Shown here: positions 1,569-53,201 of the stretch, in pieces | Layout: the number at the start of each line of letters is the position of its first letter | Position numbering within the stretch: position 1 is the first letter of the stretch | Assembly: GCA_011033025.1 (NCBI GenBank) | Contig: WFMF01000138.1 | Span: 186,001-250,000, forward strand | Length of the DNA: 64,000 nucleotides | Direction: 5' to 3' | From: Beroe forskalii | Taxonomy: Eukaryota; Ctenophora; Nuda; Beroida; Beroidae | The notes under the pieces: model-generated | The model's input: only the letters and a program-made list of their open reading frames with translations | Told to the model about the DNA's origin: nothing | The model's database searches: none | Translations under genes and position numbers: made by a program

Positions 1569-4500
1569 GAACGTAACAAGATAGACACACTCTACGAATG
1601 TTTGTCTCCTGAGGGCTCCCCTACCAGGCTTACCAAGCCAGCTGCTGCTCCTAAAGGTACAGTTACCAAATACCAATACTTCTATCGTAAGACAGATTTT
1701 CATCTAGTCAGAGTCGTGTCTGTCAGTTTAATTCAGTAATCAGTCCCTTGAACGTTTTGATAGTCGATCATATATCCCAATATCAAGTAATCGGTCGAAT
1801 TCTATCAAAATATGTAAATTGCAAATTCCAAACCATGGTCCATGGTTAAAACACCTTCCAAAATACCTGTTTCTCGGTCGTAAGTCACACAACACATTAC
1901 CGTTTCTCAGCTGACTACGAGGAGCTATCGGACGAGGAGCTACCTGAGACAGAAGACACTGCAGAGAAGAGAGAAAAGCGAGGGAGGAGCGAGGAAAGGA
2001 GGGATGACGACGATCTGGAGGACGAGGGCAGGCACGAGGGAGAAGAGGAAGAGGAGGAGGAGGTCCCAGCCTGGATATTCGTGTCGGTGAACTACGACCC
2101 CTACTCCTTCAGACCCACCCCTCTCACCTACTTCTACACGCCCACTGCTACCTTCTACCAGAAGAACTCGCAGCGGATTGCTGCTAAGAACGCCGGAATC
2201 ACTGATAAGGGAGCGTACACCCCTCGAGCTCCTCCAAACGTAACGAAGCTGACTAAGCTGGTGCAGGGGCATGGGAGTAACCCTGAGGTGACAGCCAAGT
2301 GGATCCTGGCTCTGGAGCAGTGTCACGGGCTGGTGTCTAACTTCCTGCACTACATTGAGACAGATGACTTGAAGTCGATGGTGGTGTTGTTAGGGAAGTG
2401 GGTCCTTTCAGCCCTCTCTCTTACTGCTCTCTCGGGGCTACCTCCTGGGCTTAATGTCAGGGGACTAAAAGCAGGTAATACACATGGGTACATGGGTATT
2501 GAAAGTAGTGCTTTTTTCTTCATAACGTCGTAAATAGATTCAGCTATTCAGGTTTGGATGCCGGTTCAAGGCTAAGAAGAGAAAAATAAAGAGTAAATCA
2601 CTATAGAGCTGCCTTTCGACCGGTGGTTTTGAACATTACAAAACTTATAAAGTTGCACCGCTACTAATATGACAGTTATAGCCCTCACCACCCTCCAACC
2701 CTCTAGGACTGATGTTGATGGAGGCGCTGTGTAGCTGCTCCCCTGAAATAGTGGACATCCTCCTGAAGGACAACGTGGTCCACAAGCTCCTCAAGACGCT
2801 AGGAGAGCCTAGTCTGGGAACCCCGACCAAACTACTCGTTCTCAAGGTAGAGAATTAAAGAACCTGGGATTATCCATAAATTTTGTGCCATGATGATTAT
2901 TTTAATATTTCAAATCCTAAAATTGTAGAGTTTTAGGTACGCTTATTAACAGGCTTGAAACTTACAGCATACTCCTAGGAATATTTATCATTTTCGAATC
3001 CCGTAAAATTTGTTTACATTTATCGGAGAGAAATGATCGTACTCGTTCGAATTCCTTAAAACCCTCGTTCTCAAGGCGATAGGAGCCTCCTTCACCTCGG
3101 AGAAAGCAGTGAAGGAGTTCGTTAAGATGAGTCTGGTGGGTGTGGGTAAGACAGGGTACCAAGTCCTGTCCGAGATCCTGCTCAATAACCCCACTGAGAG
3201 AACAACCCACGCTGCTACCGTGCTCTTCGGCAGGGTCCATCTCTACGAGCTACTGCTGTCCATCAGGAACTCGGCACAGAAGTGTCTCAAACTCTCTCAG
3301 GACACAAAGGTAGACTAAAGCATTCGTGTTTTGATGCTCATAAATTTATGAATTTACATCTAAGCCGTCACAAGTTTATAAACCCTTCTCAACCGTTAAT
3401 CATTCATGCGACCATGCGTGATGTATAATCAAGTACAGAAATTACTTGAGTTTATAGATCCCCTCCGCTATCATTTCCCACTCCTCTTTTCACTCTTCTT
3501 TGTCCACTCACCACTACCTCCCCTTCCACCAGTCTCTGGAGGAGAGTAGCAAGCAGCTAACACTGGAGTACAGCATCGTATCACGAGGTATAGCTACCCT
3601 GGTGGAGCAGTTCATTGAGAAACCCCACCTTTTAGCGCTGCTCAACACCAAGGCCTTCCCACAGAACACTGTATCTCCTGAAACAACGAGCGATGGTAAG
3701 TGGGGATCACATTCTAACAAAAATCACAAATTCAAGAAATGGGGAAATTGAGATGTTGCCGTTTGTGTACCTATAGAGCTATAGTCTACTATACGTTCGC
3801 AAATTTTTCCTTGAATCGGTTGTGAATGAAAGTTCTAGACTTCCAAGAATTCTGAATCCTGAAGTTGAATTACTAAAACTCCCCCAGGGTTCGTGTATCT
3901 GCTGACCCTGATGGAAGGTATGAAGACTATTGAAAGTATTGCCCTGGCCACCAGTATCCCTGTTATCAGACAGAGTGTCAACCTCAGCCAGGACCTTCAT
4001 GTTAGTTTGTGTAAAGGAGCTCCCTGTCTATTCTTCTGTATTCAGTTTCCTACGTCACACACATAATGATTTGCCCTCATCAATAACACTCACTTTCCGT
4101 ATTCTCGATTCCAGAACTACACTTTCCTCTTTTCATTCACAACACATTCCCCTCGTGTGCAGGACCTGATAACACATTCCCCTCGTGTGCAGGACCTGAT
4201 AACCCATTCCCCTCGTGTGCACGACCTGATAACGAGGCTGCTGACCTCGTACCGGGGTTCCCTCTACCTGGCCTCGCACGCTGACTCCTGCAGCATCATC
4301 ATCCGGACCCTGCTAGACAACATGGAACCGGACCTCAATGTCACGGAGCTGCCGACTCTCGGGCAGATCACTCACTCAGACATCAGACTCAGTTCCCATA
4401 GTCTGGGTTTGCTGCTAACTGTCCACCTCCAAGCTATTCAACTGCTGGACAAAGTGCTCGCAGTCGCTGTCAAGGAACCTTTCATGGGTTTGTATGGAAC

Positions 4501-11305: not shown

Positions 11306-12002
11306 AGGAACCTTAGCTTTTGATTCTTCCCCATTTGTTACTGATTCTTGCTGAGAGGCCATGCTGCACTGAAAAGGTTACTGGTCAGGAACACACAAAC
11401 TTAATGACAAGGTTAAGTGATAGGTACCAAATTACACAGGATACAATTCAATTACAGATTCTTACAGCACAAAATACAATATAATACTCTCCTCTCTTGA
11501 TATACAGAAATGATTTCTTAACAAAATAAATAGCAACTTGGCCAAAGTTGCTTTAATCAACTAGGCCAGAGCCAGTCAGGCTAAGCATATAACTTCTTAG
11601 TGCACAGAGGATGAAGGGTGTAACCTGAGTAGCTGAGGCTACCAAACTGCAAACCTTCATGCAGGTAGGACATTTAAGCTAGGAGTGTGGGCCATGCCCT
11701 AACTCACAAACCAGTTCCTTGCACTAAAACTAATAGCTCATAGATAAGATAAGATAAGATAAGTATTTTGCCATAAAGCAACTCAATTAGGCATAAAATT
11801 ACTTCATCACATTTTATCATTTTAGCATGTACCCTTACTAAGGTACTCAAAATATAACTATATACATATCAAAATTGTTTGAAAATCCATAGAATATTGA
11901 CAATCAGTGCACATTGCACTTTGAGTTCAGGTGCTTGATAACACCATCTTCTCAACACTGTTTACAATCCCGCCTCTGATGAAATGCTGCTTGTTAGGCT
12001 CA
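11306..12002. other. Probable 3' region of a LINE-type element
   Basis: No host exon is seen. A short (AGATA)n run at about 11741-11763, followed by unique sequence, lies downstream of the minus-strand LINE ORF1. It looks like the simple-repeat tail of a non-LTR element. No reverse transcriptase is present between the ORF and the tail. Confidence 0.4.
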
Positions 12003-12839
12003 TCAACCTTCTTCCTTCTTCAGCTCTGCTACTAGAGTCCTTTGTGCAGCCCTCTCATCATAGGATCTGTCTGGAGACAGGAACACCATCTTATACTTGT
12101 CCTTCTTGCTAAGTTGGCGAGACTTAGAAATGACATCTGAAACAATTGAGGAACTGGTCAAGGTAACCCTTACAGGCCGAGGTCTACCATCCTTAACTTT
12201 GCCCACTCAAAACCTCCATCTTTGGTTTTCTCCAATCTCTTCCATGATGCTGCATATCTTCACATTGAGGTCCTCCTTGTCCTCCTCTGCCAGACCAAAC
12301 ACCATGATGTTACGGCTCCTGTCCTCCTCCTCCACAACTTTCTTTACTACAGACACTATGCTTGCTGGTGTGACTGATGTCTGCCCTTGCTGTCCTGACT
12401 TCACAACAGAGCTGTAGCTCTTGAACTCCTCTTTGACTGTTTCCTGGACAGATGACTTGACACATGATGTGACTGCACACAACTGATCATCTTTAAACTC
12501 CAGCAACTGCTTCTGAAGCAGTACCACATTCTCCTGAGACTCAATCAGCTTCCTTTGCAGCACAACCATCTCATCAGAGGTTTGGTTGAGTGGAGAAGTC
12601 TTCAGAGACTCATCATACTTCACCTGCATATTATGATTCTCCTCTTCCATCCCTCGAACAGTACGGTGCATGTCTGATATATGGACAAATGCTTGACACA
12701 ACATTGCAGCAAGTTTACTCTTTTCAATTGATTCACAGTGGTCAACAGTCAAATCCTTGGTGCTTGGGCAATCCAAAATTTTCAGTTTCCTCTTTATCCA
12801 CTTATCCCACAAGTCCACATTATCTCCAGTATGATCCAT
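12003..12839 (-). pseudogene. Non-LTR retrotransposon ORF1-like protein with one in-frame TGA
   Basis: Reading from the ATG at 12839, 210 codons end in a TGA at 12207-12209, and the same frame then runs another 67 codons to 12003. The product has a coiled-coil-like middle (about residues 65-130) and a fold starting SRNIMVFGLAEEDKEDLN. The last part, VKDGRPRPVRVTL...VFLSPDRSYDERAAQR, is typical of LINE ORF1 nucleic-acid chaperones (RRM-like plus C-terminal domain) of invertebrates. The TGA splits the domain exactly where it should be continuous, so this copy is broken or misread. No ORF2 (endonuclease/RT) is nearby. Confidence 0.65.
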
Positions 12840-14502: not shown

Positions 14503-15652
14503 TTGGTCTTTGTTTGTACTCGAAGCTGTTGTTTCTTATATCAAATTCTCCATAGTAGTACGTTCAATAATAAGTTTATATTCTGTCATGATAGTCTTAA
14601 TATTTCCTGCAAAAATTGCAATGTTATCTATCTGATTACCTGTTCCACATGTCAAAAACAGTATGTTGGTGAGACCAGTCAGCCACTTCACAAGCGTATG
14701 AATGGTCACAGATCAGGTGTGAAGAATAATGCCTCCACATTTATCTATGAGCATTTCAACCTTCCTGGTCATTGCTTCTGTGAAGCAACTATCCAGATCA
14801 TTGAATACGTTGATAAGGACATTTCAACCGACGTGAAGAATGATTTGTGTAGTTTGGAGGACTACTGGATTGACAGGTTAGGTACAGCCTATCCCTTAGG
14901 CCTTAATGATAAAAAAGAAGGGATATGGCAGTATATCACAAGGTATTACTGTCAACTATTTTAATGGTTTCATCAAACGTTATAAACGTGGCAGAGGCAA
15001 TAAGAGAGCCTCTTGTAAGAATAGGAGTAAAGAAGAGGTTGCAGATAATCTCGTTCTTTTCAAAGACTCTATTACTAATTTTGACCATTCTTTATTTAAA
15101 ACTCTGAGATCATATTCCTTAACAGATTTAGACTCCCTATTTAATTTAGCTAGTGTTAATTCTGGAATTTTGTACAATATCTGTAAATCATTTTGTAGGA
15201 CATTCTCACCGAAATTCAAAGTGAATGAGGCTGAGAAGATCAAGGAACGTGAACACCTAGTTTTATCATTTAATAGTAAATTTATGGATAATTTGAAATT
15301 TCAATCCATTTTCTCAGATAAATCTGTTGTCAAGCTTCTTCCTCCTCCTCTACAAGAGAAGTCTCCTCTACGCATTTACTATCGTTATAGTAAACCTCTT
15401 AGTTTATCCGTTTGTAATTACAGCAAATTACTTAAAAATCTTACCATTCCTGATGTTCGAGCAATTCTAAATTCTCAATGTAACTGTAGTTTATCATCTT
15501 ATAATTATGAGCCACTAGGGCATATTATTACTGGTGACTTGAGTATTGCCAATGATCCAGATTTAAGAAATATTTTATCTTTCGGTAGTAAATTTAGAAT
15601 TCCTTGTCATCAGACTGTGTCAGAGATCAAAGCTAGTATTGTGATGATTTGA
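14503..15652 (+). pseudogene. Naiad element: GIY-YIG endonuclease and CxC linker
   Basis: The first frame (14503 to about 14925) has the Cys cluster ISCKNCNVIYLITCSTCQ, then QYVGETSQPLHKRMNGHRS (a YVG-type variant of GIY-YIG with its catalytic Arg) and the late LEDYWIDRLGTAYPLGLND block. A frameshift near 14910-14930 moves to the frame ending at 15652. That frame carries the linker with SQCNCS (the CxC motif) and GHIITGDLSI. It stops at a TGA (15649-15651), after which the same frame continues open into the RT, so this TGA is an isolated stop. Confidence 0.78.
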
Positions 15653-17100
15653 CAAGCTTTATCAAGAGCAAAAAGTAAGAAGTACCACTTGAAGAACGCT
15701 GCTTTTGATTCTTGGTATAGCAGAGTGTCGGATATCGTTAATAATAGACTTAGATTTTATAATGACAACCATCCACATGTCTTTGAACAAACTGAAGACA
15801 ATGTCCTTGAGAGAGAGGGTGTCAAGGAAGAACTCAAACGTCTTCAGAAGTTTTATATCATTTGTACTATTGATAAAGCATCTAACAACTTCGCTTTTAT
15901 CTGTAAGAAGTTCTATGTTATAACTCTTCTCAAAGAACTTGGTTTTGACACTGATACACTAGAATGTACGGGTAACAAAACCTACTCTCCTCTCCCAAAC
16001 GACCCTGACTTCTATGTCGAACAAATCACCACGACATTACGAGACAAGTACTCCATCACCATCGACGACCAAAACATGTGTCTACCACGGCTGTTCTGGA
16101 ATCCCAAACTCCACAAGAACCCATACAAAGCACGCTTCATAGCTGGGGCGAGAAGCTGTGCTACTAAACAGCTGAACATCCTTGTTAATTGTAGTCTTAA
16201 ACTCCTACGAGAATACTTCCAAAGTATTGTCAGACAATATACAATAACAGTGGTGTCAATGTGTTTCTGGAGCATAGATTCTTCTGCACAGTTTCTTGAG
16301 TCACTGCAGGGCAGTGAAGCATTTAATCTCCAAATTTATGACTTTACCACTTTATATACCAATTTAGACCTTAAAGAAGTTGATGATATGATTGGAGAAG
16401 TTATAGATCTGATCTTCTCTGAAAGAAACAAGTACATAAATATTTGTAAATATGATACAAATAAGTGTTTCTTCATGAAGAAGATCTATGACAGCTACCA
16501 TAGTTTTGATAGAAAGATCAGCTCAAAGAAGCAGTTCATTTTATCATCTATCACACCTATATAGTTTTCATAGGTAAAGTTTTTTATCCAAGTCTTAGGA
16601 ATCCCCATGGGTGGAAATTCCAGTTCCCCCATCGCGGATCTCACTCTCGCTAAACGAGTTTAACTTCATGCTTAATCTTTTAAAGTCTAAAAAGTTTTCC
16701 TAGCTAAGATTCTTTCTAAAACACGGCAGCTATGTCGATGATCTTATCACCACTAATTATCTCAACTTTGAAGCTCTAATCAAACAAATCTATCATCCTT
16801 CTCTTGAAATGGAGAGGTCAGGTAATGACAACAAACGTGAACTACCTGGACCTCAATATTTCTATCCAACCAAGCAAGGTTATTGTGTCTGTATATAACA
16901 AGACCGATGACTTTAATTTCTCTGTAGTTTCCTTAACATTTCCACAGAGTAATATCCCTCTAGAAGTAGGCCATAATGTATTCTATAGTCAAATCCTTAG
17001 GTATGCTAACATTTGTACTGAATTAGAAACTTTCCTCTTCAATCTTCAAAAAGTTTTCCAAAAACTGATTGAAAGAGGATATAGTAACTCAATCTTGTAG
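15653..17100 (+). pseudogene. Naiad element: reverse transcriptase, broken
   Basis: RT blocks seen in order: IICTIDKASNNFAF, LFWNPKLHKNPYKARFIAGA, IYDFTTLYTNL (motif A region), LGIPMGGNSSSPIADL near 16597 (motif B), YVDDLIT at 16731 (motif C, catalytic Asp pair) and YLDLNISI. Frame breaks lie near 16560, 16660 and 16800. The catalytic YVDD is intact, but the protein could not be made in one piece. Confidence 0.78.
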
Positions 17101-19726: not shown

Positions 19727-20640
19727 TTACTTTGACTGATTGACAGACTGATTGGGCGACTGATTTACGGCGAACTGGCTTATATTGACGGACTGACTGA
19801 CCGACGACTTGACTGATTGACTGACTGATGGACGGACTGAATGACTGATAAGCTGACTGATTGACTGACTGATTGGCAACTGTTTGACTGAATGATTGAC
19901 TGATTGGCGGCCCAGCTGAATTGGCAACTGATTAACTGACTGATTGACCAGTTGATTGACTGACTGATTGACTGACTGATTGACTGACTGATTGACTGAC
20001 TGATTGACTGACTGATTGACTGACTGATTAACTGACTGATTGACTGACTGATTGACTGACTGATTGACTGACTGATTGACTGACTGATTGACTGACTGAT
20101 TGACTGACTGACTGACTGATTGACTGACTGATTGACTGACTGATTGACTGACTGATTGACTGACTGATTGACTGACTGATTGACTGACCGATTGACCGGA
20201 CTGATTGACTGACCAGATTGACTGGACTGATTGACCGACCGATTGACGACCGATTGACTGACGATTGACCGACTGATTGGACTGATTGACCGACTGATTG
20301 ACTGATTGACCGACTGACTGATTGATTGACTGACTGATTGACTGATCGATTGACTGACTGATTGACTGACTGATTGACTGACTGATTGACTGGCTGTTGG
20401 ACTGATTGAATTACTGACCGACTGATTGACTGGACTGATTGACTACGGATTGACTGACCGATTGACTGACTGATTGACTGACTGATTGACTGGTTACTGA
20501 CTGACCGATTGACTGACTGATTGACCCACTGATTGACAACGATTACTGAACAAACTGACTGATTGACTGACTGATTGACTGACTGATTGATCGATTGACT
20601 GACAGACTAACTGACTGATTGATTGACTGACTGATTGCAG
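19727..20640. repeat. 12-bp tandem satellite (ACTGACTGATTG)n
   Basis: About 900 bp of head-to-tail ACTGACTGATTG units. They are nearly perfect in the middle (about 19950-20190) and decayed at both sides. Apparent Ser/Gln/Val open frames across it are by-products of the 12-bp period. Confidence 0.9.
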
Positions 20641-24120: not shown

Positions 24121-24679
24121 TAAGTATGTTAACATTGATAAATAGCGATGCTTGATGTTACTTTAGAAAACATAAACGTACCATTTTATCATATGGCCAT
24201 GATTTCCGATCACATTAACTGCTTTGATAACTGCTTTTTAATATGGATCAATTACAATCCAGTTCATGAGGCTTGGATCATACCAGCCTGAGACACTATC
24301 AAAATGATCATGTCACTCCCCCGGTAGCTTTCTATCAGATCTTCTGTTGCCAAATAGATAATCTGTGATCTGGCCGCTGGCGGTGTAACCGCTGTAACAG
24401 CTAAAAATGATCTTACTGCTAACGATCAAGAACAACAGCTACTCATTGGGTTGCCAGTTAGAAAGAAAATACATATTCGTAATTTTAAAACATTATCTTC
24501 ATACTAACAGACTGGATAAGGCTGAGAGTCGATCTGTGATCTGTGGATCAAATCGTTGACCCGTTGTATTTTTAATCTAAAATGCCCAAGATCAACGGTT
24601 CACTCTCAACACGACACAGTACTGAGTAATAACATCTGTGTTGGCAGTTAGATGCGATTTGAGTACAATTTATCCAAAT

Positions 24680-27180
24680 TGGGGGGTGCCGACATATTTT
24701 TTTGTTTTTTGTTTTTTCCAAAAAATCACATTTACCTTAACAAAAAAACAAAAAAAACAAAAAATACAAAACAAAAAAAACCCAAAAAAATACAAAACAA
24801 AAAAAAACAAAAAACAAAAAAACATAAAAACATAAAAAACAAAAAAAACAAAAAAAATACAAAAAACAAAAACATAAAAAACATGAAATAAGAATTGCGC
24901 CTGCCGGCACATTTCTTGTGCCCGTCGTTCCCGTATGCAGGCGCTTAATTTCCTGTTCCCTTGGGATGGTATTAAAATACGCCGCCATTTGATCGTCGAC
25001 CGTTGTACGTCTTATTTACCGACAATTGACATGGTGACTTTACGATGAAACGCTTCTTTTATCAAGTGTCACATCGCAATACTAACATAATGGAATCAAT
25101 TTTCTAAATATCAATTCGTAAGTATAAACTGAAAACAATAATTGCGATCGTTTTCTTTAAGCTGAGCGAGCGCTTTAATTTCATGAAACAATAAAGGTCG
25201 TACGTGATCACAAATCGCGTGCATTTTATTGCGCGCAAATTAATTCAACACCTGCCATGTTCTGTTTGCGCGTACGCGTTCATTCTTGGTTGTTTTCCTT
25301 TTGAGTTTTGTGTGACGTCTCGTGCCACTGTCCACATCAAGCGTTGCGCATTATCAAGCGTTTCCATTGATGACAATAAAATTATATCATACGAAATCAC
25401 ATTATTTTCTGTCCTTACAAGTTTCTGCAGTTCGATTTTATGTTGCTCAGATGCCACAGTAAGAGGCCAGAGCTCACTTTCAAATAATAACTAGATCGAG
25501 GATTGCCACTTTTGATATTCAACCAAATGCAATGTTCTTCCTGGGCGTCGAAATTTTATGATCAACTGTGCCAACTTGAAGATAAAGAGAAGGATTCTAG
25601 CCAAGATTGAAGATTCAGATATCGTAAATTCATGAGGTACCAGGACCAATTTTAATCTCTTTACTTTCCTCAGCGAAGGTCAATCATCATTGATCGAACT
25701 CAAATTGCTCATTGTCAATTGTCTCCTGCTAAAAGAAAATGATAATGTGATTGAAACTCAATCAAAATTTGATGGAGAATTCAAGAAAATCTTAAGTCAT
25801 TCATGCACCTCTTATCAAATATCATTGAAAGTTTGATGAAATTGAAGAATGATGAAGTTTTTGAAAAGAATCAATTTCAAGTTTCAACATTAGGATGAAC
25901 AGAGCATTGAACCGGAATACCTGTAAGCTAGCTGCAGTGCACACTGTACAGCACAGGATGCCACTACTCCAAGGTATATTGGCGCGAGTGATATTATAAA
26001 GGAGCAGTTGGATGCTTGAAAATAGAGCATACATACGTACGTACATACGACCAAATTTGGTCGCGCGCAGCACCACCACCTATTTCAGATTTAACAGTAC
26101 GCGTAAAGGTAGTATACACACAACCCCCACAAAAAACGATCTCTGCTTACCTTTTCTCAATGCCTTTTTGTAAAACAAAAACGCGATTGGGAACAGGAAA
26201 AAATACAAAAATTACAAAATAGATTAAAAAACAAATAAAAGAGTAAATATAATACTATTGATACATCAAGTTATTAAGGTTGGCGTAGTAACCTTCTGCT
26301 GAATTGAGAGTGGAAAATCCATTTTCACATTCATTTTGTCAGTTTGAGCCCATAACCAAACCTTATTCTAACTCGGAACAAACAACATTGGTCACGTATT
26401 TTATTAATTCCTACAACTCATCGACGAACTCACCGGCTGAAATACAGAAACTGACATCAAGTTTACGTGTTTCTATCGCATCTGAACTTGTTTCAATGTA
26501 ATCAAGTCGAATGACCTATGCAAATATAAATTTCTTGAAATCCCTAATTTCTAGAAAACATCCACGAACTTACGTGCTTCACAATTTCATCGTAGATTTC
26601 TCATTCCTATTTATTGAGGCATTGAGAAACCATTATCACTTCGTCATTGTATCACCGAATAGGGCTACATTCAAAATTTTCGGTCTTAAACGTAATTTCA
26701 AGCATTTGGCAGTTACATTTTTAGAAGCCTCCTGCGACAAAAATTTTCGACCGATCGCCTTAAATTGAGAACTCCTCTATTGCTAAATCTCTAGGTCTAA
26801 AAGCAATGTGTATCGAAGTAAAACACAATCTGGCGAGTTACAGATGTTCAGAGTAGGGAAAATAGCGTTCTATCGCAAAATACTTTATTAGAGTGGTTTA
26901 ACTCGATTTTGAAGACGACACCACAGCAGCAAAATGGGCACAAACCAAATTCCCTTTCATATTTTTTGTACTTTTTGGTTTTCATGTTTTTTGGTTTTTT
27001 ATTTTTTTGTATTTTGTATTTTTTGTTTTTATTGTATTTTTTTTGTTTTTTTTGTTTTTTATGTTTTTTGTAACTTTTTGTTTTTTGTACTTTTTGTTTT
27101 TTTTTTGTTTTTTTCAGAAAACAACATTTACCTTAACAAAAAAAACAAAAAAAAACAAAAAATAGGTCGACCCCCTCCCC
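24680..27180. mobile_element. Inverted-repeat element with T-rich/A-rich ends, long copy (A)
   Basis: The left end is GGGGGGTGCCGACATA followed by (T)nG runs, then CATTTACCTTAAC, then (A)nC runs. The right end mirrors it: T runs, CATTTACCTTAAC, A runs and AATAGGTCGACCCCC. The two termini are imperfect inverted repeats. The interior (24.9-26.9 kb) has no recognisable transposase. Its 26.2-26.95 kb part is shared with the short copy at 51.98-53.34 kb. Long Phe/Lys-rich frames in the T/A runs are not genes. Confidence 0.55.
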
Positions 27181-27976
27181 AAATTACATTGTTGCACTGA
27201 TTCGAAGTTTCAAAGAGTGAATACTGACTCCCCGCTAGTAAGATTACGTTCGCTGCACTCCTGACCAATTTTATCAGTTAGAGCCTCTTTAAAACCTTTT
27301 AGCTGTAAAATGGAGTTTTCGGACCATATAATATGTGATATAGCCACTGCCACCAAGAACATGGCTAAAAACTGCTTTGTTCTATGTTAAGGCATGACAT
27401 CAAGTCCCATAGAACAGTACTCGGTTATGAACCTTACCTGGTGATTTCAGTGAATGTCCTTGCTGAACCGCAAGGAACTGAAGCTGAGAGGTTTCGTTCA
27501 GACCGAACTATTGTGTCAAATGGTGGTTTATACAAATTGTGTTTTGCAACACAAACCCAGATTGATATTTAAGATTAATTTTAGTACGTGGGCAAGAATC
27601 TCAGTTACAAGCATAGCCCCCATTTCAGTGGGTCCTGAGGGCCCCATTTTAGTATTTCAAGCTGAGGGGGTAGAGTGACCCTGTCACCAGTCACCGACAA
27701 AGACCCCCTGCCGTTTTGATTAACAATGCCGAATGCCCCTTCGAGAACTAACGGGCGAGGCAGTTTCAAATGCGACTTTCTGTCCCCGTCTTTTTATCCC
27801 CAATTGGCATAAAATTGTAAAGTTCTAAAGTTCAACCATAGATTGTGATAGCTGGATCTTTTGTTTGTGAGCTCATTCTTTTGACGAATTACTTTTCGCG
27901 GATGGTACTCGTGGGGCTATAATTTGGTGGCTTTTTCAGATTTTGTCAGATTATAGGTTAGAAACTAAACACATAC
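27181..27976. other. No exon recognised between element A and MSH6
   Basis: The next MSH6 exons should lie here on the minus strand, but no segment resembling the MutS connector domain was found. A 62-codon plus-strand frame at 27384-27572 is unrecognised and could be chance. Confidence 0.3.
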
Positions 27977-30900
27977 CTTCCATGAAGCTGTGAGTCTTAG
28001 TGCCCTTCGTTATCACGGCACACACCTCCCTGCTCACTGTCTTACTCTTGTTCTCTCCCGGCCTCGAGGTCTGCTCGATACGAGCCTGATGGGAACAGTG
28101 GGATTAATGGGGACAGTGGGAATAATGCGGACATTGGGAATAATGGGGGCAGCCGGAATAATGGTGTTTAATTGGGAACAGTGATGAGTGAATTTGAGAG
28201 AATATGGCAATGGTAACTCAATAAGTCGAACCCACCACTCGGAAGCCTTTCTGGACGAGCGTCTCCGAGTATCTGCCGAAAAGCTTTCTCCGGAAATCCG
28301 CAGTGAGCGAAGTTCCCCTTCATGTAAATCAGACCGAGCTCCTTCACCGCTATCTCGGCGTCCATATGGTACAGCTCGTAGAACTTTCCGACTTTGAAGA
28401 AGAGGATGATGTCGAAGTATTCGCTCTGAAATGCAGTCCAATTTGAGCGCAATCGGCTTTACCTTACTACTTTATAACTTAGCTACCTTACCTGAATAAT
28501 AGACCATGCACAATGTATCCCCGATTTGCATATCCTTGACCTACCTCACCTTAACTCCTCCTCATAACCTCATTTCATAGTGTCACCTCAAGGCGCCGAT
28601 AATTCGCGGAAGAGGTGCCTCACCTGCCACTGCCTCACCTTGATTTCCCACCACTGCCTCACCTTGATCTCCCACCACTGTCTCACCTTGATTTCCCACC
28701 ACTGCCTCACCTTGATCTCCCACCACTGTCTCACCTTGATCTCCCACCACTGTCTCACCTTGATTTCTCACCACTGCCTCACCTTGATTTCCACCACTGT
28801 CTCACCTTGATTTCCCACCACTGTCTCACCTTGATCTCCCACCACTGTCTCACCTTGATCTCCCACCACTGTCTCACCTTGATTTCCCACCACTGTCTCA
28901 CCTTGATTTCCCACCACTGCCTCACCTTGATCTCCCACCACTGCCTCACCTTGATCTCCCACCACTGTCTCACCTTGATTTCCCACCACTGTCTCACCTT
29001 GATCTCCCACCACTGCCTCACCTTGATTTCCCACCACTGCCTCACCTTGATCTCCCACCACTGCCTCACCTTGATTTCCCACCACTGCCTCACCTTGATC
29101 TCCCACCACTGCCTCACCTTGATTTCCCACCACTGTCTCACCTTGATCTCCCACCACTGTCTCACCTTGATTTCCCACCAGACTCACCTTGATCTCCCAC
29201 GACTGCCTCACCTTGATCTCCCACCACTGTCTCGCTTTGATCTCCTACCACTGCCTCACCTTGATTTCCCACCACTGCCTCACCTTGATCTCCCACGACT
29301 GCCTCACCTTGATCTCCCACCACTGCCTCACCTTGATTTCCCACCACTGCCTCACCTTGATTTCCCACCACTGTCTCACCTTGATCTCCCACCACTGTCT
29401 CACCTTGATCTCCCACCACTGCCTCACCTTGATTTCCCACCACTGCCTCACCTTGATTTCCCACGACTGCCTCACCTTGATCTCCCACGACTGCCTCACC
29501 TTGATCTCCCACCACTGCCTCACCTTGATCTCCCACCACTGCCTCACCTTGATTTCCCACCACTGCCTCACCTTGATCTCCCACCACTGCCTCACCTTGA
29601 TAGTTGATTTCCCACCACTGCCTCACCTTGATTTCCCACCACTGCCTCACCTTGATTTCCCACGACTGCCTCACCTTGATCTCCCACGACTGCCTCACCT
29701 TGATCTCCCACCACTGCCTCACCTTGATTTCTCACCACTGCCTCACCTTGATCTCCCACCACTGTCTCACCTTGATCTCCCACCACTGCCTCACCTTGAT
29801 TTCCCACCACTGCCTCACCTTGATCTCCCACCACTGTCTCACCTTGATCTCCCACCACTGTCTCACCTTGATCTCCCACCACTGCCTCACCTTGATTTCC
29901 CACCACTGCCTCACCTTGATCTCCCACCACTGTCCCACCACTGTCTCACCTTGATCTCCCACCAATGCTCACCTTGATTTCCCACCACTGTCTCACTGTC
30001 TCCCACTTCATCTTGATCTCCACCACTGTCTCACCTTGATCTCCCACCACTGTCTCACCTTGATTTCCCACCACTGCCTCACCTTGATCTCCCACCACTG
30101 CCTCACCTTGATTTCCCACCACTGCCTCACCTTGATTTCCCATCACTGCCTCACCTTGATCTCCCACCACTGTCTTACCTTGATCTCCCTCCACTGCCTC
30201 ACCTTGATTTCCCACCACTGCCTCACCTTGATTTCCCACCACTGTCTCACCTTGATCTCCCACCACTGTCTCACCTTGATCTCCCACCACTGTCTCACCT
30301 TGATTTCCCACCACTGCCTCACCTTGATTTCCCACCACTGTCTCACCTCGATCTCCCACCACTGCCTCACCTTGATTTCCCACCACTGTCTCACCTTGAT
30401 CTCCCACCACTGCCTCACATTGATCTCCCACGACTGCCTCACCTTGATCTCCCACCACTGTCTCACCTTGATCTCCCACCACTGCCTCACCTTGATCTCC
30501 CACCACTGCCTCACCTTGATTTCCCACCACTGCCTCACCTTGATTTCCCACCACTGCCTCACCTTGATCTCCCACCACTGTCTCACCTTGATCTCCCACC
30601 ACTGTCTCACCTTGATTTCTCACCACTGCCTCACCTTGATTTCCCACCACTGTCTCACCTTGATTTCCCACCACTGTCTCACCTTGATCTCCCACCACTG
30701 TCTCACCTTGATCTCCCACCACTGTCTCACCTTGATTTCCCACCACTGCCTCACCTTGATCTCCCACCACTGTCTCACCTTGATTTCCCACCACTGCCTC
30801 ACCTTGATTTCCCACCACTGCCTCACCTTGATTTCCCACCACTGTCTCACCTTGATCTCCCACCACTGTCTCACCTTGATCTCCCACCACTGTCCAACCA

Positions 30901-32697
30901 CTGCCTCACCTTGATCTCCCACCACTGCCTCACCTTGATCTCCTACCACTGCCTCACCTTGATTTCCCACCACGGTCTTACCTTGATCTCCCACCACTGC
31001 CTCACCTTGATCTCCCACCACTGCCTCACCTTGATTTCCCACCACTGTCTCACCTTGATTTCCCACCACTGTCTCACCTTGATCTCCCACCACTGTCTCA
31101 CCTTGATTTCCCACCACTGCCTCACCTTGATCTCCCACCACTGTCCCACCACTGCCTCACCTTGATCTCCCACCACTGCCTCACCTTGATCTCCTACCAC
31201 TGCCTCACCTTGATTTCCCACCACTGTCTCACCTTGATTTCCCACCACTGCCTCACCTTGATTTCCCACCACTGCCTCACCTTGATTTCCCACCACTGTC
31301 TCACCTTGATCTCCCACCACTGTCTCACCTTGATCTCCCACCACTGTCCCACCACTGCCTCACCTTGATCTCCCACCACTGCCTCACCTTGATCTCCTAC
31401 CACTGCCTCACCTTGATTTCCCACCACGGTCTTACCTTGATCTCCCACCACTGCCTCACCTTGATCTCCCACCACTGCCTCACCTTGATTTCCCACCACT
31501 GTCTCACTTTGATTTCCCACCACTGTCTCACCTTGATCTCCCACCACTGTCTCACCTTGATCTCCCACCACTGTCTCACCTTGATTTCCCACCACTGCCT
31601 CACCTTGATCTCCCACCACTGCCTCACCTTGATTTCCCACCACTGCCTCACCGTGATTTCCCACCACTGTCTTACCTTGATCTCCCACCACTGTCTTACC
31701 TTGATTTCCCACCATTGTCTCACCACTGTCTAACCTTGATTTCCCTCCACTTCCTCACCTTGATCTCCCACCACTGTCTCATTCCGGGGGTGCAACTCTT
31801 CAGAAAGTCCTGGGGAACGTGCAGGGTCCGGTGGTTGTACATCTCGTCATCACGTGACCGCCTATCCTTATCCTGCCAGGTGAATGTGATCATAAGATTA
31901 TGTTTGATACTATAATACACATTTTATCAAAAAATATTTCTAATATCCATCTCATTAAATCTTTTACCTTATAATGATTGTTTTATTCTAAGTATCTGAC
32001 ATGACTTTTTTCATTTTCGATCAAATATTACAATCACTTCAAGGCAAATTAGGAATCGTAAATACCTTTATGAGCTCCGGTTTCAGCCACTTGAGAGTAT
32101 GATGTATATACTGAGCAGCTTGTCCCGACTGAGGAGCAATTAATCGTTATGCCGCAAAGAGTTGATGTGGTTTACAATGCTTCTGATTCTACTGTTATAT
32201 TCGCATAGAAACAATTTATCAGCGACATCATGATATTAGTTAGCTGATTGCTTTGGGGATTACCATGGCTCGACTAATCATGCTGAATTGATGATGTCCT
32301 TATATAGGTCAAGCATCAATATATTCACGTACCTATTTATCTCAATTAATGAATGAATGTAACTATAATAATTCTTCAGAATCATTTGACAACAATTGAC
32401 GTAACAATTTACAGTTGCCACGCCGAGTGCTTGAGGTTCCGAGAAAACTTCACCAAATTGGCTGCCGCAGCAACGGCAGTGGTGGCTGGCGTTACAGGTG
32501 TCCTTGGGGTAGAAGGTTTTCGAGGCAGTATAGGAGTTTTCAAAGAAGCAGGGGTTTGGGTGTTTGCCGGGTCATTTTGTGCGCGGACTGCGTTGTTCCC
32601 GTGCCATGGTTTTTGGGAGTTTTTGGGAAAGATTTTCGTTGGAGTGAGGATTCATTGTCGTCGTCCGCGTCGTCCCCAGGTTCGTAATCTGAAATTT
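27977..32697 (-). CDS. MSH6: MSH6 mismatch-repair protein, partial (four exons)
   Basis: Minus-strand exons: about 32465-32697 (acidic and Pro/Thr-rich linker starting [10 protein letters not shown], with one frameshift); 31759-31872 (38 codons, ending [14 protein letters not shown]); 28236-28425 ([22 protein letters not shown], then [13 protein letters not shown]); 27977-28085 ([17 protein letters not shown], then [13 protein letters not shown]). MSH6 pairs with MSH2 to bind mismatches. The visible part is the end of the N-terminal tail and MutS domain I, with the mismatch-stacking F-x-E in GKFYEL. Exon 28236-28425 is one base too long (190 instead of 189). The surplus is in the AAAA run at 28279-28282; removing it restores [14 protein letters not shown] and phase. 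The PWWP region, clamp and ATPase are absent. Truncated gene, pseudogene or assembly error are all possible. Confidence 0.82.
28088..28165. repeat. 17-bp intronic repeat in MSH6
   Basis: Four to five copies of a GGGACAGTGGGAATAAT unit between the third and fourth visible MSH6 exons. Confidence 0.65.
28630..31758 (-). repeat. 24-bp minisatellite derived from the MSH6 exon end and splice donor
   Basis: About 3.1 kb of head-to-tail 24-bp units, roughly 130 copies. Read on the minus (MSH6) strand the unit is GTGAG[A/G]CAGTGGTGGGA, then [A/G]ATCAAG. The last 22 coding bases of exon 31759-31872 are the same sequence ending at ATCAAG, and the intron opens with GTGAGG. Each unit is therefore exon end plus 5' splice site. 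The unit is eight codons (VRQWWEIK), so all six frames stay open for long stretches. Longer-period structure exists: the junction CACTGTCCCACCACTG recurs at about 29.93, 31.14 and 31.34 kb, with a one-base variant at 30.89 kb. The array fills nearly all of the intron 28426-31758. Conceptual proteins from it are artefacts. Confidence 0.93.
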
Positions 32698-33686
32698 CGA
32701 GGAATGTGAATAAAAGCAGTTATATCATTTGGATTCATTCGCATTACGATAATATTGGGCGACAATCTGAGTTTCTCTCGTAACTGGGAAAGTGCACAAA
32801 AGTTCAATTTCAAGCCCCCAACTATGATTTTCAGTAATTCCAAAATTTGCCCGAAGTAAACACTGAAGGGTTTAGTAACAGGTAAAAAGGTGCAAACCGG
32901 GATATTACGCACAGTTGTTTGAAGGCCAGTGTGTAATATCATTAAAGCTCGAAGGTTTTTACTGCGGGGAGTTTTGGTCTTTCTAAGTTTTTAAACCGAA
33001 TTATGCCGACCTAACTCATTAAAATGGGTTGTTCAAACACAAGTAAATGTTTTTAAATTATGATATGGAGGTAAGAACTGGCTCTATCGTGCGAAATATT
33101 TTTGCGATAAATATATATATGAAAAAGAACTGGCTCTTTGTGCGAAAAAATATTTTGCGGGGCCCCGGTTTTTTAGTACAGACTTTAAATGGTGCCTATG
33201 GGTTTTAAGCACTGCAAAAACGTTGGGAAAATTTAATTTTTTAAAAAAACATAGTAATGTAGAACTCAAAGGGCCCAAAAGAAACCTATTGGGGCCCTTA
33301 TGGGATGTTTCACCAATTCCAAAAAACCCCCAATGACGGGGTCAACCAAACACTATTGAAACGAAAATGCAGCAGCTCATCTTGACACTCATCCAGACGC
33401 GACGCGCCTAGGGAAAGCCGCGCCAAATGAAAAACAAATAATCTTTTTTCTTTTGTTGGAGATCGGGTTGGCCCCCTTATTTTCCCCAAAAATTTGGGAA
33501 AAAATGTTAACAATTGTAAACAAAACGCGTATGTTAACAATTTTCCCGGGGGCCCGAGTTCGTCAGGTTGAAATTCTGATGTGCAAAAAATTTTTGTGGG
33601 GATTAATAATGTTTTATGTTTTTTGGGTTGATTAGTGGGGGCCTCCTAGCCGCCAAAACCTTTTTCTCTCACAAATCCCCTTTTCA
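32698..33686. other. Low-confidence sequence next to the assembly gap
   Basis: No exon is recognised. From about 33,080 to the gap the sequence is rich in doubled homopolymers (GGGGCCCC, runs of 5-8 A or T). It reads like poorly polished consensus, so frames here should not be trusted. Upstream MSH6 exons could be hidden here. Confidence 0.4.
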
Positions 33687-33786
33687 NNNNNNNNNNNNNN
33701 NNNNNNNNNNNNNNNNNNNNNNNNNNNNNNNNNNNNNNNNNNNNNNNNNNNNNNNNNNNNNNNNNNNNNNNNNNNNNNNNNNNNNN
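33687..33786. other. Assembly gap (100 N)
   Basis: Exactly 100 N, the usual placeholder for a gap of unknown length. The left arm of the inverted duplication begins directly at its right edge. Confidence 0.99.
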
Positions 33787-47859: not shown

Positions 47860-48960
47860 TGCAGTGTTTAGGGAGCAGTGGAGAGTTAGGGAGCAGTGAA
47901 GAGGTTAGGGAGCAGTGAAGAGTTAGGGAGCAGTGAAGAGTTTAGGGAGCAGTGAAGAGTTTAGGGAGCAGTGGAGAGTTTAGGGAGCAGTGAAGATTTA
48001 GGGAGCAGTGAAGATTTAGGGAGCAGTGGAGAGTTTAGGGGGCAGTGAAGAGGTTAGGGAGCAGTGGAGAGTTTAGGGAGCAGTGAAGATTTAGGGAGCA
48101 GTGGAGAGTTAGGGAGCAGTGAAGAGTTAGGGAGCAGTGAAGAGTTGGGAGCAGTGGAGAGTTTAGGGAGCAATGAAGATTTTAGGGAGTATTGAAGAGT
48201 TTAGGGAGCAGTGAAGAGTTAGGGAGCAGTGGAGAGTTTAGGGAGCAGTGGGGAGTTTAGGGAGCAGTGAAGAGTTTAGGGAGCAGTGGAGAGTTTAGGG
48301 AGCAGTGAAGAGTTTAGGGAGCAGTGAAGAGTTAAGGGAGTAGTGGAGAATTAGGGAGCAGTGGGGAGTTAGGGAGCAGTGAAGAGTTAGGGAGCAGTGG
48401 AGAGTTAGGGAGCAGTGAAGGGTTAGGGAACAGTGGAGAGTTTAGGGAACAGTGGAGAGTTTAATGAGCAGTGAAGAGTTAGGGAACAGTGAAGAGTTTA
48501 GGGAGCGGTGGAGAGTTTAGGGAGCAGTGAAGAGTGAGGGAGCAGTGAAGAGTTAGGGAACAGTGATGAGTTAGGGAGCAGTGGAGAGTTTAGGGAGTAG
48601 TGGAGAGTTTAGGGAGCAGTGAAGAGTTAGGGAGCAGTGGGGAGTTTAGAGAGCAGTGGAGAGTTAGGGAGCAGTGAAGAGTTAGGGAGCAGTGGAGAGT
48701 TAGGGAGCAGTGAAGAGTTAGGGAGCAGAGAAGAGTTAGGGAGCAGTGAAGAGTTAGGGAGCAATGGAGAGTTTTGGGAGTAGTGAAGAGTTTAGGAAGC
48801 AGTGGAGAGTTTAGGGAGCAGTGGAGAGTTTAGGGAGTAGTGAAGAGTTTAGGGAGCAGTGGAGAGTTTAGGGAGCAGTGGAGAGTTTAGGGAGCAGTGA
48901 AAAGTTAGGGAGCATTGAAGATTTTAGGGAGCAGTGGAGAGTTTAGGGAGCAGTGGAGAG
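47860..48960. repeat. ~19-bp minisatellite containing TTAGGG
   Basis: About 1.1 kb of head-to-tail AGTTTAGGGAGCAGTGGAG units of 17-20 bp, some 55-60 copies. The alternatives are GAAG/GGAG and GTTAGGG/GTTTAGGG. Each unit contains TTAGGG, but the spacing is not telomeric. Confidence 0.88.
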
Positions 48961-51979: not shown

Positions 51980-53170
51980 AAGGGGGGTGGCCGACATATT
52001 TTTTTGTTTTTTTTGTTTTTTTGTTTTTGTTTTTTCAAAAATCACATTTACCTTAACAAAAAACAAAAAAACAAAAAAAAAAAAAACAAAAAAAACAAAA
52101 AAACAAAAAAACAAAAAAAAACAAAAAAAAAAACAAAAAAAAACAAAAAACAAAAAAACAAAAAAACATAAAAAACAAAAAAAAAAAAAAAAAAAAAACA
52201 AAAAAACAAAAAAAACAAAAATACAAAACAAAAAAACAAAAACATGAAATACAAAAATACAAAATTACAAAATAGATTAAAAAACAAATAAAGAGTAAAT
52301 ATAATACTATTGATACATCAAGTTATTAAGGTTGGCGTAGTAACCTTCTGCTGAATTGAGTGTGGAAAATCCATTTTCACATTCATTTTGTCAGTTCGAG
52401 CCCACATAACCAAACCTTATTCTAACTCGGAACAAACAACATTGGTCACGTATTTCTTATCAATTCCTTCAACTCATCGACGTGAACTCAACGGCTGAAA
52501 TACAGAAACTGACATCAAGTTTACGTGCTTCTATCGCATCTGAACTTGTTTCAAGGTAATCAAGTCGAATGACCTATGCAAATATAAATTTCTCGAAATC
52601 CCCTAATTTCTAGAAAACATCCACGTGAACTTACGTGCTTCACAATTTCATCGTAGATTTCTCATTCCTATTTATTGAGGCATTGAGAAACCATTATCAC
52701 TTCGTCATTGTATCACCGAATAGGGCTACATTCTTAAGTTTCGGTCTTAAACGTAATTTCAAGCATTTGGCAGTTACATTTTTTAGAAGCCTCCTGCGAC
52801 AAAAAATTTTCGACCGATCGCCTTAAATTGAGAACTCCTCTATTGCTAAATCTCTAGGTCTAAAAGCAATGTGTATCGAAGTAAAACACAATCTGGCGAA
52901 AACTCTCTGAGTTACAGATGTTCAGAGTAGGGAAAATAGCGTTCTATCGCAAAATACTTTATTACAGTGGTTTCACTTGATTTTGAAGACGACACCACAG
53001 CAGCAAAATGGGCACAAACCAAATTCCCTTTCATATTTTTTGTATTTTTGGTTTTCATGTTTTTGGTTTTTATGTTTTTGTTTTTGTATTTTTTTGTTTT
53101 TTTGTTTTTTTTATTTTTTTGTTTTTATTTGTTTTTTTTGTTTTTATGTTTTTATGTTTTTAGTTTTTTT

Positions 53171-53201
<31 letters not shown>

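Follow-up and report, generated by a model that had tools for sequence, protein, structure and literature searches.

An exon-intron boundary minisatellite in MSH6 of the ctenophore Beroe forskalii, probably a very large mirage

How does a splice donor come to be repeated more than a hundred times, and what would the spliceosome make of the result? The question is raised by a 64,000-nucleotide stretch of the Beroe forskalii genome (assembly GCA_011033025.1, contig WFMF01000138.1, positions 186,001 to 250,000; hereafter the window), in which a minus-strand exon of the mismatch repair gene MSH6 is followed by 3.1 kb of a 24-bp minisatellite most of whose units carry 5' splice sites. We believe that this array is probably a very large “mirage”, that is, a minisatellite that arose by tandem duplication of an exon-intron boundary, with a first donor that would be spliced normally and distal donors whose use would lead to a truncated and probably degraded mRNA.

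The identification of the gene as MSH6 in the initial annotation was borne out by the joined peptide of this exon and the next one, which matched human MSH6 2o8b_B (1e-43) and another MSH6 chain, 8ag6_B (2.2e-43), with bacterial MutS matches ranking behind both of these structure chains. The final part of the query was typed in the reading of a second locus (on contig C286, see below), because the window exon 28236-28425 is frameshifted. The junction itself had been described as an exon ending in AAG, followed by GTGAGG and repeated at intervals of about 24 bp, some 130-fold, until ca. 200 bp before the next exon. Inspection of the sequence and Tandem Repeats Finder (TRF; array at 28627-31724, periods of 24, 48 and 72 bp, 89-91% matches) confirmed the junction and its repetition, the end of the array could be located at ca. 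28624, and the amplification of exon edge plus donor also held, with 122 out of 133 sites, authentic one included, reading MAG/GTRAG. Splice signals are therefore kept in many units, as in mirages.

These 133 donor-like sites lie in register from the authentic donor at 31758 to 28623 at the far edge of the array. Of the intervals between neighboring sites, 115 measure exactly 24 bp and 17 are irregular (11, 13, 15, 22, 23, 31, 35 or 38 bp); an alternative count, with a slightly different motif and array end, gave 116 units of 24 bp. The end of the exon, ATGAGACAGTGGTGGGAGATCAAG, equals the array consensus, GTGAGGCAGTGGTGGGAGATCAAG, at 22 of 24 positions, the mismatches falling on the first base and on position 6, and positions 6 and 18 of the array are two-way A/G sites. 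The unit thus consists of the last bases of the exon and the start of the intron and spans the boundary between them, which is what characterizes mirages. Since the exon peptide is conserved in human MSH6, we take the exon to be the ancestor and the array the descendant. The coordinates of these and related features are collected in Table 1.

Table 1. Features of the MSH6 region in the window (coordinates of the window; C286, contig with the second MSH6 locus)
Feature	Position	Strand	Remarks
MSH6 exon	31759..31872	-	114 nt; the repeat derives from its last 24 bases; ends AAG, then GTGAGG
First intronic unit GTGAGGAAGTGGAGGGAAATCAAG	31735..31758	-	opens with the authentic donor AAG/GTGAGG
Short unit of 11 bp	31724..31734	-	after the weak +24 donor AAG/GTTAGA; shifts the frame downstream; also in C286
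TGA stop in the exon frame	31722-31720	-	read when a donor beyond intron offset 35 is used
24-bp donor-bearing minisatellite	28624..31758	-	ca. 131 unit lengths
Remainder of the intron, to acceptor TGCATTTCAG	28426..28623	-	ca. 200 bp
Next MSH6 exon, start of MutS domain I	28236..28425	-	1-bp insertion relative to C286
Pyrimidine-rich 18-bp tandem array	28089..28164	-	3 bp from the acceptor of the following exon; C286 counterpart at 12733-12808
Stretch homologous to C286:9564-16790	24123..33432		contig comparison

Judged with an approximate matrix drawn from general knowledge, 73 of the 133 sites (the authentic one counted) equal or surpass the authentic donor, two of them surpassing it. The authentic donor, at 11.1 versus 6.8 for the AAG/GTTAGA found 24 bp downstream, is by the same matrix the best of the 12 donors mapped in the C286 MSH6. 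The RNA of the exon and first units was less structured than its shuffles (z = +1.75), so the donors do not appear to be hidden, and pyrimidines make up at most 39% of the 18 bases preceding any AG in the array, which makes the units unlike acceptors.

What a distal donor would do to the protein is decided at the very beginning of the array. The initial annotation had proposed that a donor n units downstream would insert n in-frame copies of VRQWWEIK without a frameshift, and this fails for n of at least 2. The second unit has 11 bp instead of 24 and, because of this, the exon frame runs through it as GTT AGA CAG TGG TGA, with a stop that would be included by 130 of the 133 candidate donors. 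Three donors avoid the stop and two of them also keep the frame open, namely the authentic one and the AAG/GTTAGA 24 bp on, which would add VRKWREIK in the window and VRQWREIK in C286. The protein could thus gain no more than a single VRQWWEIK copy, and an altered one. The C286 array, with 35 donors, has the same short unit and TGA, and there too three donors avoid the stop and two keep the frame. A stop in an extended exon, upstream of later junctions, normally triggers decay of the mRNA.

The second locus was found by searching the assembly (216 Mb in 1134 contigs, the window lying on C179), which gave one further strong match, C286:11473-12398, 95% identical. Exon, irregular first units and intron end are those of the window, but the array that they flank has ca. 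790 bp or ca. 32 units, so that the two MSH6 loci differ about fourfold in array length (ca. 131 units in the window). Of the 116 units of 24 bp in the window 20 are distinct, and C286 has 9 distinct ones out of 31; 8 occur in both arrays. Within this assembly the 24-bp array was found only at the two MSH6 loci, in a search that skips very common words and in which five candidates were scored. Four of the nine matches, 68-72% identical, sit in arrays with other unit lengths (22 bp on C531, 27 bp on C459).

Two loci with very different array lengths that share their irregular first units count in favor of the mirage reading, and the following course of events would account for them. The first duplication most probably used a direct repeat of two similar sequences 24 bp apart, the exonic TGAGACAG and, where the intron begins, TGAGGAAG. 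The inner units would then have grown by unequal exchange or slippage, leaving at the edges the irregular units common to both copies. The spliceosome would normally pick the first donor, through exon definition of the 114-nt exon, as has been reported for amphioxus mirages, and this would yield a normal MSH6 sequence. Occasional use of a distal donor would extend the exon through the TGA, and such RNA would probably be removed by nonsense-mediated decay. The array would in that case be mostly neutral or tolerated, and its cost, if any, would be a smaller yield of MSH6 mRNA with increasing length.

Such structures are already known, and the statement in the initial annotation that no named description was known has to be withdrawn, as amphioxus mirages are the same kind of array (PMC3087553; PMC3902484) and the human IFI6 case dates from 1995 (PMC4526556). 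In the parts of these papers on which we rely, mirages are minisatellite-like tandem duplications of exon-intron boundaries in the amphioxus Adh3 and globin genes (PMC3087553) and likewise in troponin C, with repeats also at PGBD5 splice sites (PMC3902484). They carry AG/GT signals, differ in length between haplotypes and, as suggested by reverse transcription PCR, are spliced regularly (PMC3087553), and they have been proposed as raw material for new introns (PMC3087553; PMC3902484). The MSH6 array resembles them in a unit that spans the boundary and in the many units that keep splice signals. Mirage length varies between haplotypes (6 and 3 units in BflGb6); the two MSH6 loci, which may or may not be alleles, have ca. 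131 and ca. 32 units. The array is unlike mirages in size: against the 6 and 3 units of BflGb6, the 108-bp triplication of PGBD5 and the 10-72 bp unit of Adh3, the 3.1 kb in MSH6 hold ca. 131 units of 24 bp, far above the counts stated in these sources for other mirages (3 to 6).

Other systems described in the portions of the literature cited here share part of these traits. The minisatellite of human IFI6 (6-16) provides multiple splice donors (Turri et al., 1995, as cited in PMC4526556), and its donor-bearing units lie downstream of the exon as in MSH6, where donor use is only predicted. However, two downstream units are used in IFI6, with three mRNA species, while the distal donors of MSH6 lead to a stop and only one of the 132 extra donors keeps an open frame, so that a set of in-frame isoforms from several downstream donors is not what the sequence predicts. 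The tandem duplication across an intron-exon boundary in PMC4974935 also copies splice signals, but there a new intron arises, whereas MSH6 shows extra donors and no new acceptor or intron was seen. The minisatellite CeRep25B of Caenorhabditis elegans, near alternative splicing regions, is likewise linked to splicing choices; unlike the MSH6 array, it is not described as derived from a splice junction in the part of PMC4039745 used here. No MSH6 case of such a structure was found in the literature searched. The array thus belongs to a kind of repeat that is rare but has a name, and it is a very large representative.

A different matter, which concerns the state of the gene and not the origin of the array and is compatible with a mirage, is whether the window copy is a partial duplicated pseudogene, in which case its 130-unit array would not lie in a working gene. 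We regard this as a serious possibility, although we lean slightly against it. Counting matches over 400 bp, no homology to C286 was found on either side beyond window positions 24123 and ca. 33432; C179:166000-167056 and window 52253-53181 also match C286, but these two are separate and have the look of dispersed repeats. No later MSH6 exons turned up on C179:156001-280000, and searches with domains III and V gave no match on C179, such exons being found on C286 alone, where further MSH6 exons lie at 34 to 54 kb and the ATPase exons occur twice, in opposite orientation. Besides, the window exon 28236-28425 reads TTTT where C286 has TTT. With this insertion, and with domains III and V unmatched on C179, neither the intact frame nor the full set of MutS domains of a working gene is present in the window copy, which may not be functional. 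On the other hand, all 8 of the 8 substitutions in the three exons common to both copies, the inserted T apart, are synonymous. Moreover, the doubled and inverted ATPase exons of C286 imply that haplotypes may have been mis-joined in the assembly, and the window could therefore be the other allele. The C286 pieces at 69-88 kb are inverted copies of those at 94-110 kb (MSH6 ATPase region, 92-97% identical), and these doubles (C286:69000-110000) reflect either mis-joined haplotypes or a true inverted duplication. Accordingly, the window copy should be one of two things, a partial duplicate of recent origin or a second haplotype in scattered pieces.

It could also be that the array is a regulatory device, either a poison exon extension, by which distal donor use would tune the dose of MSH6, or a cluster of U1 sites acting as a local U1 sink or as a guard against early polyadenylation. 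The many strong donors, the weak RNA structure and the single stop, common to both copies, that would intercept 130 of the 133 donors would fit such a role. Nevertheless, we find it unlikely, as a roughly fourfold difference in array length between copies sits badly with tuning and amphioxus mirages are reported, in the parts of the papers used here, not to disturb splicing (PMC3087553; PMC3902484). An assembly artefact, be it in the array itself or in its length, is quite improbable: there is a 100-N assembly gap at window 33687-33786, 1.8 kb upstream of the MSH6 exon, and the two loci do differ in length, but the array contains unit variants and recurring irregular units, and two contigs show the same edge units. 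The least credible alternative is that the array gives rise to a series of MSH6 proteins in which n extra copies of VRQWWEIK precede domain I, for although 24 bp make eight codons and most units have strong donors, the +24 donor alone keeps the frame, the TGA would stop the products of nearly all others in the window and C286 alike, and n of at least 2 is refuted in both assembled copies unless the 11-bp unit is an assembly error in both.

The mirage reading could be extended from MSH6 to the genome. Splice junctions would then be recurrent nurseries of minisatellites, with donors and acceptors of many genes (MSH6, MSH4-like, M1 peptidase, Sushi-like) growing into long unstable arrays, and the MSH6 array would tie the dose of a mutation-suppressing protein to its own unstable repeat. 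This extension we hold to be doubtful, if worth stating. In its favor, and in that of the mirage reading itself, 5 of the 23 splice sites mapped in the C286 MSH6 lie inside or within 15 bp of a tandem array, namely the donors at 11495 (24 bp) and 100860 (29 bp) and the acceptors at 12811 (18 bp), 34485 (17 bp) and 53923 (26 bp). When the 27 TRF arrays (period of at least 9, at least 2.5 copies) were placed at random, a mean of 0.28 sites was touched, and five or more in none of 2000 trials; with the target array removed, four sites were touched and again none of 2000 placements reached as many. The test was run without the ATPase exons after C286:100860 and without the inverted ATPase copy, and two further exon regions are absent from it, since segments 487-536 and 600-645 of the human MSH6 probe found no counterpart.

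Individual cases point in the same direction. At C2:441092-443815 an 18-bp array with AAGGTGAG in many of its ca. 150 unit lengths begins where an open exon ends (its Pfam match, Sushi with E = 0.014, stays below the cut-off), an M1 peptidase exon has a 3-unit donor array (PF17900, 2.4e-6, above the cut-off), and on C174 ca. 8 units lie at an open exon with no Pfam match. All three were fetched because they hold AAGGTGAG arrays and are therefore examples and not a rate. On the acceptor side, a gene in the piece C325:34001-44000, which we take to be MSH4-like from its MutS_V match, has a 51-bp array of ca. 25 units at 3100-4411 that contains the acceptor and exon start GPNMSGKSTYIK, and a 23-bp array of 3 copies at another acceptor (2492-2560). 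The continuation of its Walker-A exon was not seen within this 10-kb piece.

Several results weigh against the mirage reading or its extension. In a stricter test, 2 of 31 junctions in MSH6 and MSH4, the target and one other, had an 18-base copy of the junction within 600 bp, against a background rate of 8.8% in C286 and 26% in the C325 piece. Real junctions thus show no excess, and junction copying is not seen at most of them. In the placement test for MSH4, run without the final donor of that gene and without the Walker-A acceptor, which its own array encloses, one of seven sites touched an array (p = 0.245). Acceptors show a weak excess, with 3 of 11 real sites versus 107 of 1227 pyrimidine-rich AG decoys. 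Among the AG/GTRAG decoys 28 of 36 are inside the target array, which makes this donor control uninformative, and the other 8 touch no array. Finally, identical strong donors downstream could, in principle, compete with the first one.

Counts over the whole genome were rejected as evidence: AAGGTGAG triplets (1040 versus 885 in the reversed control) because single long arrays dominate, and CAGGTGAG (1605 versus 78) for the same weakness. Among the first positions listed for these counts, CAGGTGAG arrays are present on C1, C2 and C77. At C1:1559034 an open frame ends at the array, and this candidate was set aside as its sole Pfam match is below the cut-off (E = 0.1). The 27-bp array of C459 was rejected as a donor array, as the minus strand has likelier, cysteine-rich exons than the plus-strand frame, so that it would be acceptor-side; these exons had no Pfam match over a cut-off. 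The 22-bp arrays of C531 share GTGAGACAGTG with the MSH6 unit and were rejected as well, lying in a twice-present segment without a visible exon. The two copies of this segment are inverted (L011 2017-5804 and L012 4282-7702), each with 3.4-3.8 kb of 22-bp array and matching flanks. No exon was seen at the C157 array locus.

Elsewhere in the assembly, a MutS homologue at C303:562903-565323, MSH2-like by our reading, is a single open frame of 922 amino acids without introns, unlike the intron-rich MSH6. The window also holds a 19-bp minisatellite, GTTTAGGGAGCAGTGAAGA, of ca. 59 copies (47866-48960), G-rich on the plus strand and with no MAGGTRAG motif, a TGAC-based array of ca. 850 bp (19786-20634), and open frames with reverse transcriptase- and GIY-YIG-like pieces (14503-16564), presumably resembling a Penelope-like retroelement.

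The MSH6 array provides a natural test of how the spliceosome chooses among more than 100 nearly identical 5' splice sites, with two lengths of one junction available in a single assembly. Minisatellites at exon boundaries may be a recurrent product of splice junctions, and this bears on how introns grow and originate.

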